The notes: generated from the letters alone by a model not told the origin. A stretch of DNA of 35,005 nt from Prolixibacteraceae bacterium (GCA_027858145.1 JAQIDF010000097.1:1-35005); one strand, 5' to 3'. Positions 26,739-35,005 are shown, counted from the stretch's first letter. A program made the numbers and translations.

Positions 26739-27974
26739 ATGTCAAAAGAATTACTCAATTTTAACAACGAGCCCGGAACAGCGGCTCACATCAAAGTTAT
26801 TGGTGTGGGCGGCGGTGGTGGTAATGCCGTAAACTACATGTGTCATCGGGGTATTACTGATGTAGGGTTCATGTTATGCAATACCGATTCACAAGCGCTC
26901 GATAACAGCCCCGTTGAAACATGTGTCAGGCTTGGCAATACCCTCACCGAAGGTCGTGGGGCCGGTAATATGCCTGAGCTTGGCCGTGAAGCTGCCGGTG
27001 AAAGCATTGATGAAATTCGTGCTTTGCTCGAAGGTACTACCGATATGGTTTTTATTACCGCCTGTATGGGTGGCGGGACAGGGACCGGTGCTGCACCTGT
27101 GATTGCCGAAGTTTGCAAAGAATTGGGTATCCTCACCATTGCCGTAGTTACGGTTCCGGCTAAATCTGAAGGTCGTAAGCGGTATAATCAAGCCATCGAG
27201 GGGGTAAATCAGATAAAGGAGCATGTTGACAGTCTTTTGGTTATCAACAACGATAAAATACGTGAAATTTATGGCAACCTGCCGGCTTCACAGGCTTTCT
27301 CAAAGGCCGATGAAATACTCGCAACGGCTGTTAAAGGTATTGCCGAGATTATTACTTTGCACGGCAGTATCAATATCGACTTTGCCGATGTGAGCACAGT
27401 GCTTACCGGAAGTCGTGTGTTTATTATGGGCACCGGATTTGCAGAGGGTGAAGGCCGTGCATATAAGGCTGTGGAAGAGGCGCTTGAATCGCCATTGCTC
27501 GATAGTAACGATATTTACGGAACCGATGAGATATTGCTCAATATAACTTCAGGCACCGACGAAATTACTATTGGCGAAATTGGTGATGTTATTGAATACT
27601 TACAGGAAAAAGCCGGTGACGATGCCAACATTATTTGGGGAAATGGTTTTGACGATTCCCTGGGCTCAAAAATTAGTGTGACCATTGTGGCTACAGGGTT
27701 CAAAACTAATCCTTCTGAAATATTACAGGAACAGGAAAAAGAACCCGAACAAAAAGTTGAACTCGAAATGCCTGAAGACAAAATTTTCATCAACGAGGAA
27801 GAAGAAGATGCCCCGGTAGCAAGTCGTGATGAAACGAAAGAAACTGGTAAGAAGAATAATGAAAAGAATAATCCTGTGCGAAAAAAATCCCGCAAAGATT
27901 CAAAGAAAGACGGATGGCTCAAACGACAATTTGAACTCTTTTTTGAAGAAAAAAGCGCCGATTTTGATGCTTGA
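26739..27974 (+). CDS. ftsZ: FtsZ paralog 1 (tubulin-like GTPase; lacks canonical C-terminal peptide, ends in a basic + amphipathic tail)
   Basis: [31 protein letters not shown]7 loop [12 protein letters not shown]-terminus [31 protein letters not shown]. Confidence 0.93.
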
Positions 27975-28038: not shown

Positions 28039-29442
28039 ATGGAAAACAACGATATTTTAACCAATTTTCAACTGCCGGTAAACGAAGGTGGTATTATAAA
28101 AGTGATTGGTGTTGGTGGTGGCGGCGGTAACGCCGTTAACCATATGAGCCGTCGGGGTATTACCGATGTCGATTTTATGATTTGCAATACCGACTCGCAA
28201 GCACTGGCAAATAGTACGGTGCAAACAAAGGTTCAGCTTGGTTCTTCGCTTACCGAAGGTCGTGGAGCCGGAAACAAACCCGAGATAGGGCGTTGTGCAG
28301 CTCAGGAGAATATCGAAGATGTAAAAGCTGCCATTGGTGAGCGTACTAAAATGGTGTTCATCACTGCCGGAATGGGTGGTGGAACGGGTACCGGTGCCGG
28401 TCCTGTAATTGCCGAAGCTTGCAACGAACTTGGGTTGCTTACAGTGGGTATTGTTACCATTCCTTTCCGTAACGAAGGAAAACGCCGCATACAACAAGCC
28501 ATTGAAGGAATACAGGAAATGGAAAGGCATGTTGATTCGTTGCTGGTGATTAACAACGAACGCATTCGTGAAATGTATGGCGACTTTAAACTTTCGGAGG
28601 CTTTCTCGCGTGCCGATGATGTACTGGCTACAGCTGCTAAAGGTATAGCTGAAATTATTACTGTTCATGGTTATATTAATGTTGACTTTGCCGATGTTGA
28701 AACAGTAATGCGACAGAGTGGGGTGGCACTTATGGGCTCGGCTGTTGGTAAAGGCGAAAACCGTGCACTGGCAGCGGTTGAAGAAGCGTTGAATTCTCCT
28801 TTACTAAACAACAATAATATTGAAGGCGCTCAAAATATACTCTTAAATGTAACCTCCGGAGAGGAAGAAATTACGATGGATGAAATCGGGCAGATTACCG
28901 ACTATATTCAGGCACGTGCCGGTTACGACGCCGACCTGATTTGGGGTAATGGCATTGACGAATCGTTTGAAGGCGAAGTGTGTGTTACAGTTGTAGCGAC
29001 CGGGTTTAGCACATCTTCAATTCCTGAAGTGCTGGCCAATAAAAAGGTTGAAAAAACATATCATACCCTCGAAGATGAAAAGAAAGCCCAGTCGCGTGAA
29101 AACCTGAAAAAAGAGAAACCTGTTCAGGAAACATTTCAGTTCGACACACCAAAGCCGTCCGATGAGTTTGACAGTTTGTATAAAGGAGCCGGGAAAGCAC
29201 GTGATGAAGGAGTTGATGACCAGCCGGCACGCAAGGTGGAGTTTAATGTCGATTTTGCCGGTACAGAAGAGGAAGAGATTGAAAACCTTGAAAATATACC
29301 AGCCTATAAGCGACGGCAGATTAAAATGAAATCGAAACAAAAGAAAGAGCGCGAAGTTTCACGTTTCAGGCTTGAAAACGATGAGAATGATGAAATATTT
29401 TTAAATGAAAACAATAGTTATTTACACGATAATGTTGATTAA
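28039..29442 (+). CDS. ftsZ: FtsZ paralog 2 (canonical Bacteroidetes FtsZ with C-terminal peptide)
   Basis: [48 protein letters not shown]-terminal IPAYKRRQIK and NNSYLHDNVD. Confidence 0.96.
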   Translation: MENNDILTNFQLPVNEGGIIKVIGVGGGGGNAVNHMSRRGITDVDFMICNTDSQALANSTVQTKVQLGSSLTEGRGAGNKPEIGRCAAQENIEDVKAAIGERTKMVFITAGMGGGTGTGAGPVIAEACNELGLLTVGIVTIPFRNEGKRRIQQAIEGIQEMERHVDSLLVINNERIREMYGDFKLSEAFSRADDVLATAAKGIAEIITVHGYINVDFADVETVMRQSGVALMGSAVGKGENRALAAVEEALNSPLLNNNNIEGAQNILLNVTSGEEEITMDEIGQITDYIQARAGYDADLIWGNGIDESFEGEVCVTVVATGFSTSSIPEVLANKKVEKTYHTLEDEKKAQSRENLKKEKPVQETFQFDTPKPSDEFDSLYKGAGKARDEGVDDQPARKVEFNVDFAGTEEEEIENLENIPAYKRRQIKMKSKQKKEREVSRFRLENDENDEIFLNENNSYLHDNVD

Positions 29443-30670: not shown

Positions 30671-31798
30671 ATGAAATCTTCCAGGCACATTAACTTAAAG
30701 CATTTGCTTATTGATAGTCAAAAATTTATTGGTTTGCAGTTTTATCAGGATCAGGCTCTTGAGGCAATGACAAAACAGTTGCCCAATGCTCAATGGAGTG
30801 AGGATTACCGAATGTATTATATCGCGAACAATCCATCAAATGTCAATTTAATCTTTAAAACGTTTAGAGGAACGGCATGGATTAACGGGAAATATTTTTT
30901 CACAAACAAAGCCATTCATAAAGGTGTAGAAGAGCCTAATCTTGAGAGTCTTAAGAAAAGAAAAGCGACTCCGGATGTGCGTTACTGCCCGGATTCATAT
31001 ATTCAGAAATTAGAAACTTGCCGTTACGCAGAAAACACAGCAAGAACCTACGTTTGCTGCTTTGAGAGATTTATTAACTATTACAAAGAATACGAATTGT
31101 TAAATATTGATGAGAAGATGATCAGGGATTATTTGTATTCCCTATTATCTCTCGGAATTTCTGACTCTTACCTGAACCAATCAATTAATGCCATTAAGTT
31201 TTACTACGAACTGGTAGAGGGTATGCCCAACCGTTTTTATTCGGTAGACCGGCCTCGAAAAAAGCAAAAGCTACCCAACGTATTGTCAAAGGAAGAGATA
31301 AAAAGTATGATTTACAATACACCAAACATTAAACACAAATGCATTGTGAGTATTTTGTATTCGTCGGGGCTGCGCAGAAGTGAAGTGATTAATCTGAACC
31401 TGCAGGATATTGACAGTAAGCGAATGGTTGTTTTTGTTAAAGGAGCAAAAGGAAACAAAGACAGATTAACGATTTTAAGTGAAAACGTTCTAAAAGATTT
31501 GCGACTTTATTATATGAAAAACAAACCCAGGGAGTTTTTGTTTGAGGGGCCCAAAAACAGACAGTACAGTGTTTCCAGTGTAGCTAACATTGTTGAGAAG
31601 GCAGGCAGGCAAGCAAGAATAAAAAAGAAAATTACTCCACACATGCTACGTCACAGCTTTGCCACCCATTTGCTTGAGGCGGGTGTCGACCTTCGCTATA
31701 TACAAAGTTTACTGGGTCACAGCAGTTCAAAAACCACAGAAATATATACTCATGTAGCCACTAATATAATAAAAACAATAAAAAGCCCGCTCGACTAA
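30671..31798 (+). CDS. Tyrosine recombinase/integrase (XerC/D-like; IntI-specific insertion not seen)
   Basis: SSGLRRSEVINLNLQDID (R), KGAKGNKDR (K), TPHMLRHSFATHLLEAG (HxxR), LLGHSSSKTTEIYTHV (H, Y); N-terminal SAM-like core-binding domain; ends IKSPLD. Confidence 0.92.
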   Translation: MKSSRHINLKHLLIDSQKFIGLQFYQDQALEAMTKQLPNAQWSEDYRMYYIANNPSNVNLIFKTFRGTAWINGKYFFTNKAIHKGVEEPNLESLKKRKATPDVRYCPDSYIQKLETCRYAENTARTYVCCFERFINYYKEYELLNIDEKMIRDYLYSLLSLGISDSYLNQSINAIKFYYELVEGMPNRFYSVDRPRKKQKLPNVLSKEEIKSMIYNTPNIKHKCIVSILYSSGLRRSEVINLNLQDIDSKRMVVFVKGAKGNKDRLTILSENVLKDLRLYYMKNKPREFLFEGPKNRQYSVSSVANIVEKAGRQARIKKKITPHMLRHSFATHLLEAGVDLRYIQSLLGHSSSKTTEIYTHVATNIIKTIKSPLD

Positions 31799-31861
31799 CA
31801 ATAATTATTTATAAATTAGTCCCGACATAAAAGGAATAAACACAATTGTTTTTACCCAAAT

Positions 31862-31870
31862 GTTACCCAC
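31862..31870 (+). other. Putative recombination core at integrase-proximal cassette boundary (GTTACCCAC)
   Basis: Exact reverse complement of GTGGGTAAC at 33488-33496 at the other end of the same cargo gene; extended match gttacccaca[a/g]taa. Confidence 0.6.
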
Positions 31871-31894
31871 AATAAAAATTTTGATACTGCAAGA

Positions 31895-33514
31895 ATGATT
31901 AGACTTTTAAAAAAAAGGAGAAATAAAGATTCACAAAACACTTTCGGCGATCTAAAAAATGACTCGTTCGATTTTGAGCAGATTAAAAAATATTTTGGTA
32001 AAAAAGATCATTCAAATTCGTTTCAATTATTAAGTGATAAAACTTGTAATGACCTAGATTTTGAGGAATTATTCATGTTCGTTGACAGAACAGAATCCAG
32101 GATTGGACAACAATTTTTATATGGCAAATTAAGGTCTATTCCTTATAGAAAAGAAGACAATTCTAAAAATGAATGGTTAATTCAAAAATTAAGTGAGGAT
32201 CTGGATTTTAGACTTTTCGTTCGAAAACAATTAAAAAAACTAAATAATCAAGATGCTTATTATATAACTTCAATCTTCCAAGAGGATCATGTAAAACCAC
32301 CAAAATGGTTTTTTGTTACAAGACTTCTGTCTTTTGCAAACATACTTTCATTACTCCTGTTATTTGTGACTGTTGATATGGTTTTCGTTATTGGAATTGT
32401 ATTTATAATCAATTTGATAATTCATTATTGGAACAAAAGAAACCTCTATCAATATTTAAATTCAATACCTCAGCTACTCAGGCTTAATAAAATTGCGAAA
32501 GAGTTGTTTAATAACAATCGGCTAAAAGACATTAATCCCGATCTTCTCAAATCTATCAGTATTCTGGAAAAAGTCAAACGAAGAATGTCGTTTTTCAATA
32601 TCGAAGCTAAATTCCAAGGAGACTTTGAGGCTGTATTTTGGGGAATAATGGAACTTTTTAAAATTCTATTTTTAATAGAACCAATCATATTATTTGGTGT
32701 ATTAAAGCAACTTGACTCAAAAAGAAAACAAATTGAAACGATCTTTCAATTTGTTGGTTATATCGATTCGTCACTTTCAATTGCTTCACTAAGAAAAGGT
32801 ACAGGTAGCTTTTGCTTACCGACAATTATTGAAACTAAAAAAACAATAAATGCACTCGAAGTTTATCATCCTTTAATCCCTGAGTGTATAAAAAACAGTA
32901 TTGAAGTCAAGAAAAAATCAATTCTTCTTACTGGTTCAAATATGTCTGGCAAAACTTCATTTATTCGAACAATAGCGATCAATGCAATAACTGGACAAAC
33001 ATTAAACACTTGTTTTGCAGATCAATTCTCAATGCCCAGAATGAGCATCTCTTCTGCTATAAGGATTAGTGATGATTTATTGAATGACAAAAGTTATTAT
33101 TTTGAAGAAGTACTCACAATCAAGGAGATGATTGACAAAAGCAATAATGAAATACCAAACTTATTCTTACTTGACGAGATTTTTAAAGGTACTAATACAA
33201 TTGAGCGAATTTCTGCTGGTAAGGCAGTCTTGTCTGCATTGACTAAAAATGAAAATATTGTATTTGTATCCACTCACGATATAGAATTAGCCGATTTGCT
33301 AAAGGATGAATTTGACTTGTTTCATTTCAGTGAGAAAGTAGACCATAAAACCGTTGATTTTGATTATAAATTAAAAGAGGGTAAATTAAAAAACAGAAAC
33401 GCTATCAGGATCCTTCAGATTAACGACTATCCTGAAAAGATTATAAACGAAGCTATTGAAATATCAAAAAAATTAGATGAAATTACTGTGGGTAACATTT
33501 TGCAAATTCCATAA
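31895..33514 (+). CDS. MutS-like ATPase with transmembrane segments (MutS-related protein), putative cassette cargo
   Basis: Walker A LTGSNMSGKTSFIRTIA, Walker B LFLLDEIFKGTNTIERISAG, switch FVSTHDIELADLL; hydrophobic LLSFANILSLLLLFVTVDMVFVIGIVFIINLIIHYW; N-terminal MutS domain I not seen. Confidence 0.82.
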   Translation: MIRLLKKRRNKDSQNTFGDLKNDSFDFEQIKKYFGKKDHSNSFQLLSDKTCNDLDFEELFMFVDRTESRIGQQFLYGKLRSIPYRKEDNSKNEWLIQKLSEDLDFRLFVRKQLKKLNNQDAYYITSIFQEDHVKPPKWFFVTRLLSFANILSLLLLFVTVDMVFVIGIVFIINLIIHYWNKRNLYQYLNSIPQLLRLNKIAKELFNNNRLKDINPDLLKSISILEKVKRRMSFFNIEAKFQGDFEAVFWGIMELFKILFLIEPIILFGVLKQLDSKRKQIETIFQFVGYIDSSLSIASLRKGTGSFCLPTIIETKKTINALEVYHPLIPECIKNSIEVKKKSILLTGSNMSGKTSFIRTIAINAITGQTLNTCFADQFSMPRMSISSAIRISDDLLNDKSYYFEEVLTIKEMIDKSNNEIPNLFLLDEIFKGTNTIERISAGKAVLSALTKNENIVFVSTHDIELADLLKDEFDLFHFSEKVDHKTVDFDYKLKEGKLKNRNAIRILQINDYPEKIINEAIEISKKLDEITVGNILQIP

Positions 33515-33622
33515 GGGGTTCAGTGGTATGCCAGCAGCGGTTTTCCGCTCATTCTCTCGTCATTACCATGACAGAGAATCACACGCAAACCCTTACGTAA
33601 CTTGCAATTTACCGTTATGGGC
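33488..33622 (+). repeat. Putative attC-like recombination site 1
   Basis: R''-like GTGGGTAAC (33488-33496), L''-like TTGCAA (33500-33505), imperfect palindrome including taaggggtt/aacccttac and attctct(c)gtca/tgacagagaat with an unpaired C, L'-like TTGCAA (33602-33607), R'-like GTTATGGGC (33614-33622). Confidence 0.65.
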
Positions 33623-33642
33623 TATAATAAAAAAATACACAT

Positions 33643-34875
33643 ATGATAGAATCTTACTTAATAGAAAGCGTACTTTCTTCTTTGTTTGACTTTTTGAAAA
33701 AGAAAGTTATAACAACACCTGCTGACAGAGCCAAATTTGATTTCATTATTAAAGATGATGACGGTAAAAAAATTGCAATCGAGGTAAAAGGACAAAATGT
33801 AACAATAAAAACACTTTTAAATATCGAACGTGCTCTTCAAGACTATAATGATATTGATGAGTTTTATTTAATCACTCCTGAAGAACCTCCCAAAGATTTT
33901 GAAAAACGGATAAAGAGCGTTTTCAAAGACTTCAAGATTGTAGTTCATTGGATGGGTATTAATCAATTCATTCAAAAACAGAATTTAGGCATTGAATTAA
34001 ATGATGATATTAGAAGTTCACTTTTAAATTTACAAGTTGCAGCTGTTACTTCCAAATTTGAGGATTATGACAAAAAGTTTATTGGTTCACATATAGGAAC
34101 CACAAACCTTACAGAGCACTTAAAACATAATATCCAGAATGTTAAAGAAGGGAAAGTTGATAGAACTAGTATTCTTTTTGGATTAAGAAGACAATTCCCA
34201 TATAGTACTATAGTTGAGCTAGAAAAAAAACCTGAAGAATTATCAAAGACTTTAAAGTTCGGTAAAAAATATGACGATGCAATTATCGTCCTAACTGACA
34301 TAAAGAATTTTTCGACATTGGTTTCCGTTTCCGACCCTGAGGAATTGAATGACCTGATGAGTAAATACTATACTAATGCACGAGAGTTAGTTTTTAAATA
34401 TGGGGGGATACTTGACAAATTTATTGGAGACGCAGTTTTGGCAATTTTTAATTATCCAATAAAGAACAAAATATCGTTTACACATGCGACAAAGTTTTGC
34501 GCCGAACTTATATTAATGGGTGAAAATATATTAAATGAATTTCAACGAAAACTTGACCAAGAGATTGAGACTGGAACCCGTGTAGGATTGGCAACCGGTC
34601 CTATTTATGCATTGAATATTGGAAAGGAAGATTTTGAAGTCACATTTATTGGAGACAAGATTAATTTTGCTGCTCGTCTAGAGAAAAACTGCGATGTAAA
34701 TGGAATTCTTATGAGTAATAGATTTTTTCATAAATTAGACGACAGCAATCACGATTTTATTGACAGAATTGAGAAGACTGAAAAAAAGATAGACCCTAAA
34801 GATGCAAAAGGACAAGTTGGTATTACAACAGCTTGGCAAATTCAAAGAAATCAAATGGAAAAGATTGTAGAATAA
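33643..34875 (+). CDS. PD-(D/E)XK nuclease-like domain fused to class III adenylate/guanylate cyclase domain, putative cassette cargo
   Basis: N-terminus FDFIIKDDDGKKIAIEVKG (D33, E47-x-K49); C-terminus IIVLTDIKNFSTLV, GGILDKFIGDAVLAIFNYP, RVGLATGPIYALNIG, VTFIGDKINFAARLE match class III cyclase motifs. Confidence 0.8.
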   Translation: MIESYLIESVLSSLFDFLKKKVITTPADRAKFDFIIKDDDGKKIAIEVKGQNVTIKTLLNIERALQDYNDIDEFYLITPEEPPKDFEKRIKSVFKDFKIVVHWMGINQFIQKQNLGIELNDDIRSSLLNLQVAAVTSKFEDYDKKFIGSHIGTTNLTEHLKHNIQNVKEGKVDRTSILFGLRRQFPYSTIVELEKKPEELSKTLKFGKKYDDAIIVLTDIKNFSTLVSVSDPEELNDLMSKYYTNARELVFKYGGILDKFIGDAVLAIFNYPIKNKISFTHATKFCAELILMGENILNEFQRKLDQEIETGTRVGLATGPIYALNIGKEDFEVTFIGDKINFAARLEKNCDVNGILMSNRFFHKLDDSNHDFIDRIEKTEKKIDPKDAKGQVGITTAWQIQRNQMEKIVE

Positions 34876-34883
34876 AAATTACA

Positions 34884-34980
34884 GCCCATAACAATTAGGT
34901 ACCAATCACACGTATGATCCCAGGGACTCTACTGTGATTGTGCCTGTGTTGCACCAAACCTAAAGGGGAATCGGAGCTGT
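34884..34980 (+). repeat. Putative attC-like recombination site 2 (R' end degenerate or outside the window)
   Basis: GCCCATAAC (34884-34892) is the exact reverse complement of GTTATGGGC at 33614-33622; TTAGGT (34895-34900)/ACCTAA (34958-34963); caatcaca (34903-34910)/tgtgattg (34933-34940). Confidence 0.5.
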
Positions 34981-35005
34981 GTAGTTTCAATCTTTTTGTT
35001 TTTGG

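Follow-up and report, generated by a model that had tools for sequence, protein, structure and literature searches.

Can a tyrosine recombinase other than the integron integrase IntI serve a cassette array? The question is raised by the 3' end of the window, by which we mean the whole stretch of 35,005 nucleotides of Prolixibacteraceae bacterium DNA that was analysed (GCA_027858145.1, JAQIDF010000097.1:1-35005). Integrons are defined by IntI, and the extra domain of this enzyme is regarded as a requirement for recombination at folded single-stranded sites. With a probability of about 0.85, we read the locus as part of an integron-like platform on the chromosome, run by a tyrosine recombinase that is not IntI; the mechanism is one that we infer.

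The locus and its core pairs

The original prediction had described a recombinase followed by two same-strand cargo genes, each bracketed by its own inverted 9-bp core pair, and all of these elements were found exactly where it had put them. The features are as follows.

30671-31798, plus strand: tyrosine recombinase, 375 aa (Pfam Phage_integrase, E 4e-42)
31799-31862, plus strand: putative attI-equivalent, with a predicted crossover between G31862 and T31863 (from the position of the matching GTT+N6 in relatives)
31862-31870, plus strand: 5' core of cassette 1, GTTACCCAC (exact pair, shuffles)
31895-33514, plus strand: cargo gene 1, MutS domain V-type ATPase, 539 aa (Pfam MutS_V, E 1e-24)
33488-33496, plus strand: R''-type core of cassette 1, GTGGGTAAC (exact inverse of 31862-31870)
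33494-33616, minus strand: attC-like hairpin site of which the bottom strand folds, 120 bp from AAC to GTT (folding, covariance model)
33614-33622, plus strand: R'-type core, which is also the 5' core of cassette 2, GTTATGGGC (exact pair, shuffles)
33643-34875, plus strand: cargo gene 2, class III nucleotidyl cyclase, 410 aa, with an N-terminal NOV_C-like region
34884-34892, plus strand: R''-type core of cassette 2, GCCCATAAC (exact pair, shuffles)

When the short stretches concerned were shuffled with their dinucleotides preserved, a 9-bp pair arose by chance in 4/4000 cases for gene 1 and in 3/4000 for gene 2. The ORF of cargo gene 1 extends 18 nt beyond the R'' core of its cassette, and cargo gene 2 is labeled PycC-like (Pycsar cyclase) by PADLOC. 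Between the two genes, positions 33494-33616 fold better than shuffles, with a z score of -4.9 for the bottom strand and -2.9 for the top strand. The same interval is recovered by covariance model R2, built on 39 sites from other genomes with the window left out (72.8 bits, E 2.3e-17), as its sole significant match in 35 kb. The first cassette has both its core pair and a hairpin; for the second, we detected the core pair and no 3' hairpin. The window is an entire contig, which terminates at 35005, and the 113 nt that remain 3' of the second R'' core gave no hairpin either by folding (z -0.8) or with R2 run with filters off. Support for a 3' site in cassette 2 comes only from its core, the contig end hides further sequence, and the window contains one complete hairpin. 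Its genome has 26 such sites over about 20 contigs, plus a second recombinase on another contig (C124). No second copy of the ftsZ of the window contig was found on another contig of the genome; the window contig is therefore unlikely to be foreign.

Arrays and cassette movement in relatives

Among 141 genomes from the family of Draconibacterium orientale, the recombinase was found in 78 (E <= 1e-60). Many of the matches lie at contig ends and are directed off the contig, as would be expected of assemblies that break at repeats. 3' of the recombinase are runs of short same-strand ORFs with 120- to 180-bp repeats between them, and the further core pairs that had been anticipated between downstream ORFs were found in abundance in these relatives' arrays. 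At 20 same-family loci, the 6 nt after the start GTT were identical (6/6) to the inverted 6 nt before the end AAC of the same cassette in 81/109 consecutive site pairs, with a mean of 5.0/6, as against 2.1/6 for the same-hairpin partner and 2.1/6 for shuffled pairings (highest shuffle mean, 2.5). The rule that each cassette carries its own core, which had been drawn from the two pairs in the window, is thus upheld in relatives, and most of the exceptions appear to be sites that were overlooked or called wrongly. One locus (L067) has 12 consecutive cassettes. Altogether, we could set the bounds of 229 cassettes, whose median length was 1,049 bp; the longest ORF was co-oriented in 219 of them, and the cargo in the sampled relatives is mixed.

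An attI-equivalent had been proposed beside the recombinase. Where the array of a relative could be read, a GTT+N6 matching the end core of the first cassette does in most cases lie at a like position, 46 to 99 nt past the end of the recombinase match. The first core lies 46 to 79 nt behind the recombinase match in Xanthomarina, Winogradskyella, Polaribacter and strain ALC-1 (Flavobacteriaceae), and the first cassette differs in each of these. Indeed, the first cassette after attI was different in every relative checked, which bears out the cargo variation that had been foreseen. Just upstream of the attI-like GTT is a palindromic element whose sequence is conserved among several Flavobacteriaceae.

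Movement of cassettes can be followed in a complete chromosome (G037), where the stretch of sites recognized by covariance model R1 spans at least 64 kb. Cassettes of 1,059, 1,018 and 1,258 bp recur there at 100% identity over distances of 4.4, 20 and 21 kb; a 1,491-bp cassette recurs 44 kb away at 99.9% identity. In these duplicates, identity stops 0 to 4 nt from the boundary of CC and GTT on both sides, and the neighbors are different. At the level of sequence comparison, the copies show that cassettes have been duplicated and reshuffled with breakpoints at the CC-GTT boundary, and these are the ends that the cassette reading of the window had called for. No R1 site was found within the short flanks examined around gene 1 homologues (loci L260 to L270). 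The window-type system is widespread in Bacteroidota, with arrays of tens of kilobases.

The window by itself has two genes only, and it might be argued that these are fixed chromosomal genes separated by repeated intergenic elements, such as terminators or REP-like repeats, with cores that agree by coincidence. An Rfam search of the region gave no match, however, and the cargo is patchy, as had been predicted, with gene 1 in 14/399 Bacteroidota genomes and gene 2 in 1/141 same-family genomes. Exact core matches are seen in dozens of cassettes, and the duplicated cassettes have exact ends. The fixed-gene reading, to which we assign next to no probability, is refuted by the core-match statistics (81/109) and by these exact-ended duplicates.

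Site anatomy and the partner recombinase

Among 154 sites with a verified core, the spacing from AAC to GTT was 117 to 124 nt in 128 and mostly ca. 178 to 186 nt in the others. On the bottom strand, the layout is AAC/GTT, an unpaired spacer (6 to 8 nt on one side and 4 nt on the other), a 16-bp stem and a large terminal loop; AACG is invariant. RNAalifold analysis of 40 diverse bottom-strand sites gave the 16-bp stem, with compensatory changes in 13/16 pairs, and 96.6% of cells (including the three AAC/GTT pairs) were paired, versus 37 to 51% when slid by 1 to 3 columns. Two of the stem pairs are invariant G-T wobbles (40/40 and 39/40 sites), and bulged single bases on the L'' arm occur in 2/40. 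Such a wobble reads as an A-C mismatch on the top strand, and the mismatches between the arms there included 311 A-C and 5 G-T. Of 151 sites, 139 were more stable on the bottom strand; dereplication left 84 sites, of which 74 showed this preference (p 3e-13).

Much of this is reminiscent of integrons. Canonical attC sites are likewise bottom-strand sites with an unpaired central spacer and a G after AAC (PMC2727003), and the window's class shares with them the bottom-strand hairpin, the unpaired spacer, a variable terminal structure and the G beside AAC. Also in common are a recombinase with an adjoining attI-like site and co-oriented one-gene cassettes, large chromosomal arrays, an inverted core present at both cassette ends and breakpoints at GTT (at a resolution of 0 to 4 nt). 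The window's core, however, is a 9-bp GTTN6 in which only GTTR is conserved (150/154 cores), and it does not conform to the RYYYAAC / GTTRRRY of IntI integrons; GTTRRRY, the type of core that the original prediction had proposed to look for, fits 12/154. Further, extrahelical bases mark the strand in IntI integrons, whereas the window's class has invariant G-T wobbles, and the window-type recombinase gene differs in usually being co-oriented with its cassettes. Neither R1 nor R2 matched a class 1 integron array.

A different alternative is double-strand exchange of the Xer/dif type (as in pdif modules), which would act on inverted flanking sites with 6-bp central regions that must match. The core varies over exactly 6 nt, and the recombinase resembles XerA/XerD; both would suit such an exchange. 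Against it, the breakpoints fall at the CC-GTT boundary, and a 120-bp covarying hairpin with strand asymmetry would have no role. Moreover, because duplicated cassettes neighbor different N6, identity of N6 between partners was unnecessary, which disfavors Xer/dif exchange, and we regard it as improbable. In addition, pdif modules have 28-bp dif-like XerC/XerD sites and rely on the host XerCD, whereas window-type arrays have covarying hairpins of 117 to 186 bp and a dedicated neighboring recombinase.

The recombinase itself consists of an N-terminal extension of ca. 105 aa, a SAM-like domain and a catalytic domain in which R235, K260, H324, R327, H350 and Y359 are present. Its structure model (pLDDT 85) has XerA and IntI4 as its best PDB matches, although matches in this whole-model search are dominated by the catalytic domain. 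Nearest in both sequence and fold is archaeal XerA (structures 4a8e and 5hxy), with IntI4 less close in sequence; the match to NF040815 is just above the cut-off. Alignment with IntI4 splits into two pieces with ca. 43 extra IntI4 residues between them, and the spacing from KDR to HxLRH is 61 to 62 in 53 recombinases of the window's kind versus 103 in 11 IntI. The 41-residue IntI insertion is therefore absent, as had been claimed. In a quick maximum-likelihood tree, the IntI sequences grouped in a single clade (99), to which the recombinases of Bacteroidota cassette arrays did not belong. The enzyme thus departs from IntI in lacking the additional domain (I2) near patch III and in its position outside the IntI clade. 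It departs from Xer/XerA, which its catalytic domain most resembles, in forming its own Bacteroidota clade with an extra N-terminal domain. Escudero et al. tied the I2 domain of IntI to the accommodation of extrahelical bases (PMC4792948). In the window's system, this domain and extrahelical bases are absent together.

Could the adjacent recombinase nonetheless be a bystander, the array being a cluster of ordinary attC sites whose cassettes a canonical IntI moves in trans? The arrays do resemble integrons, and true IntI is encoded in 48/150 genomes of a phylum-wide Bacteroidota sample. However, no IntI was found in the window's own genome, and within the family IntI occurs in 5/141 genomes versus 131/141 for the sites. 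Across the phylum sample of 150 genomes, sites follow the recombinase (OR 10, p 1e-9), even among IntI-negative genomes (OR 9.9), and not IntI (OR 0.85, p 0.73). The recombinase also adjoins the first cassette in one genome after another, and the failure of R1 and R2 to match a class 1 integron array and the poor fit of the cores to GTTRRRY point the same way. We therefore consider movement by IntI in trans very improbable. At the strict cut-off, 29/73 site-bearing genomes of the phylum sample have no recombinase match, and 10 recombinase-bearing genomes have no sites of the window's class; thus, the partners are not strictly one-to-one.

How might the non-IntI platform operate? A cassette consists of one gene, or a small number of genes, followed by a hairpin site at its 3' end. 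To judge from the site anatomy, the recombinase would cut the folded bottom strand of this site between G and TT, and the cut strand would be joined at the GTT of attI or of another site. Presumably, one strand exchange only takes place, and replication completes the joint, as in integrons. In the excised circle, N6 would pair with its inverted copy from the 3' end of that cassette; such pairing may explain why N6 is particular to a cassette yet identical at both of its ends. We propose that the strand is marked by the invariant wobbles and not by extrahelical bases; this would fit a recombinase without the I2 domain, which holds extrahelical bases in IntI.

Kinship with rAID and wider meaning

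Of the systems already described, the nearest to the window's is one of gut Bacteroidales, recombinase-associated acquired interbacterial defence (rAID), which was reportedly first described in 2019 by Ross et al. Because IntI, the R-box consensus and extrahelical bases were looked for and not found, the platform falls outside the IntI integrons, although, as far as its sequence features go, it functions as an integron does; it is related to rAID, from which it differs in sites and cargo. We think it rather likely that it represents a second integron-like lineage across Bacteroidota, independent of IntI and descended from a XerA-like recombinase. In this view, the lineage would have a hairpin class of its own, where G-T wobbles take the place of extrahelical bases and I2 is not required, and rAID would be a reduced branch. 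Current integron finders, which seek IntI and canonical attC, would overlook such a lineage. Surveys have recorded almost no complete integrons in Bacteroidetes, with one in Salinibacter ruber (PMC9024848), and we found no published report of the window's system in the open-access literature, a search by which an existing paper could be missed. A widespread Bacteroidota platform that appears to do the job of an integron without IntI or extrahelical bases would serve as a natural experiment on the requirements of single-strand cassette recombination. It may also be a source of mobile genes, both accessory and defensive, that has been overlooked, and it suggests a route by which rAID defence islands could gain or lose immunity genes. 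Three things lay beyond the view of the original prediction: the long, covarying hairpin of the bottom strand, the wide spread of the system in Bacteroidota and the rAID kinship.

rAID comprises a recombinase, co-oriented genes and conserved intergenic motifs (PMC12247911). It shares with the window's system a homologous recombinase (ca. 44% identity, residues 97 to 373), co-oriented short genes and conserved intergenic motifs. The sites differ, those of rAID being 42- to 45-nt hairpins with the 8-nt core TTANNNNN and window-type sites measuring ca. 120 or 180 nt. So does the cargo: orphan T6SS immunity genes in rAID, a MutS-type ATPase and a PycC-like cyclase in the window, and a mixture in its relatives. 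A Bacteroides ovatus plasmid carries the homologous recombinase (44%), a row of T6SS immunity genes and the 42- to 45-nt hairpins. By the core rule, the one island examined suggests that rAID may be the same type of cassette array as that of the window: in this B. ovatus rAID island, the 8-nt end cores matched 8/8 in 9/12 consecutive pairs and 7/8 in one more, and the two remaining pairs involve a doubly called site.

Architecture and orientation of the recombinase

The recombinase of the window carries a conserved N-terminal extension of ca. 105 aa with the motif WSxTxxCWYI, for which we found no Pfam match and, from a structure prediction, no fold assignment. Considerably longer recombinases (658 to 718 aa) were encountered at loci L086 and L089 to L094. 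The coordinates of the extension and of one long example are as follows.

Window 30671-30985 (+): N-terminal extension of the recombinase
Natronoflexus L094 9419-11446: recombinase of the 658- to 718-aa class

In L093 and L094, the two of these that were read through in full, the protein consists of two tyrosine-recombinase modules in tandem, the first of which is apparently degenerate; cassette arrays lie behind both genes as well. In one other family (G186:C44, G178:C33, G257:C7, and G269:C7), the recombinase gene and its array occupy opposite strands, a layout shared with classical integrons, and these proteins are ca. 280 aa long and lack the N-terminal extension. True IntI with its additional domain, called by TIGR02249 above the cut-off, was found in 48 of the 150 Bacteroidota genomes searched.

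attI-like regions and plasmid-borne arrays

The stretch separating the recombinase from the first cassette in L067 (11130-11215) is strongly palindromic (z -6.3). Its upstream arm includes, in inverse orientation, the core of that cassette, a core being the short sequence repeated inverted at cassette ends. The system also occurs on plasmids of Chondrinema, Persicobacter, and Chryseobacterium (L251, L252, and L253), where sites of R1, our model of the attC-like hairpins, lie downstream of the recombinase; two of these arrays contain group II introns. A Bacteroides ovatus plasmid (NZ_CP081918) bears a rAID island (L254 12000-20300), with an attI-like core directly behind the recombinase and short hairpins (42 to 45 nt) of the form TAAC...CCATTA; the 8-nt cores of these hairpins agree at both ends of each gene unit.

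Other genes of the window

The second cassette gene (33643-34875, +) encodes a PycC-like cyclase whose N-terminal region is NOV_C-like, and it is possibly an unusual Pycsar-type anti-phage protein. Elsewhere, 26739-27974 and 28039-29442 are tandem FtsZ-like genes, 60% identical to each other.
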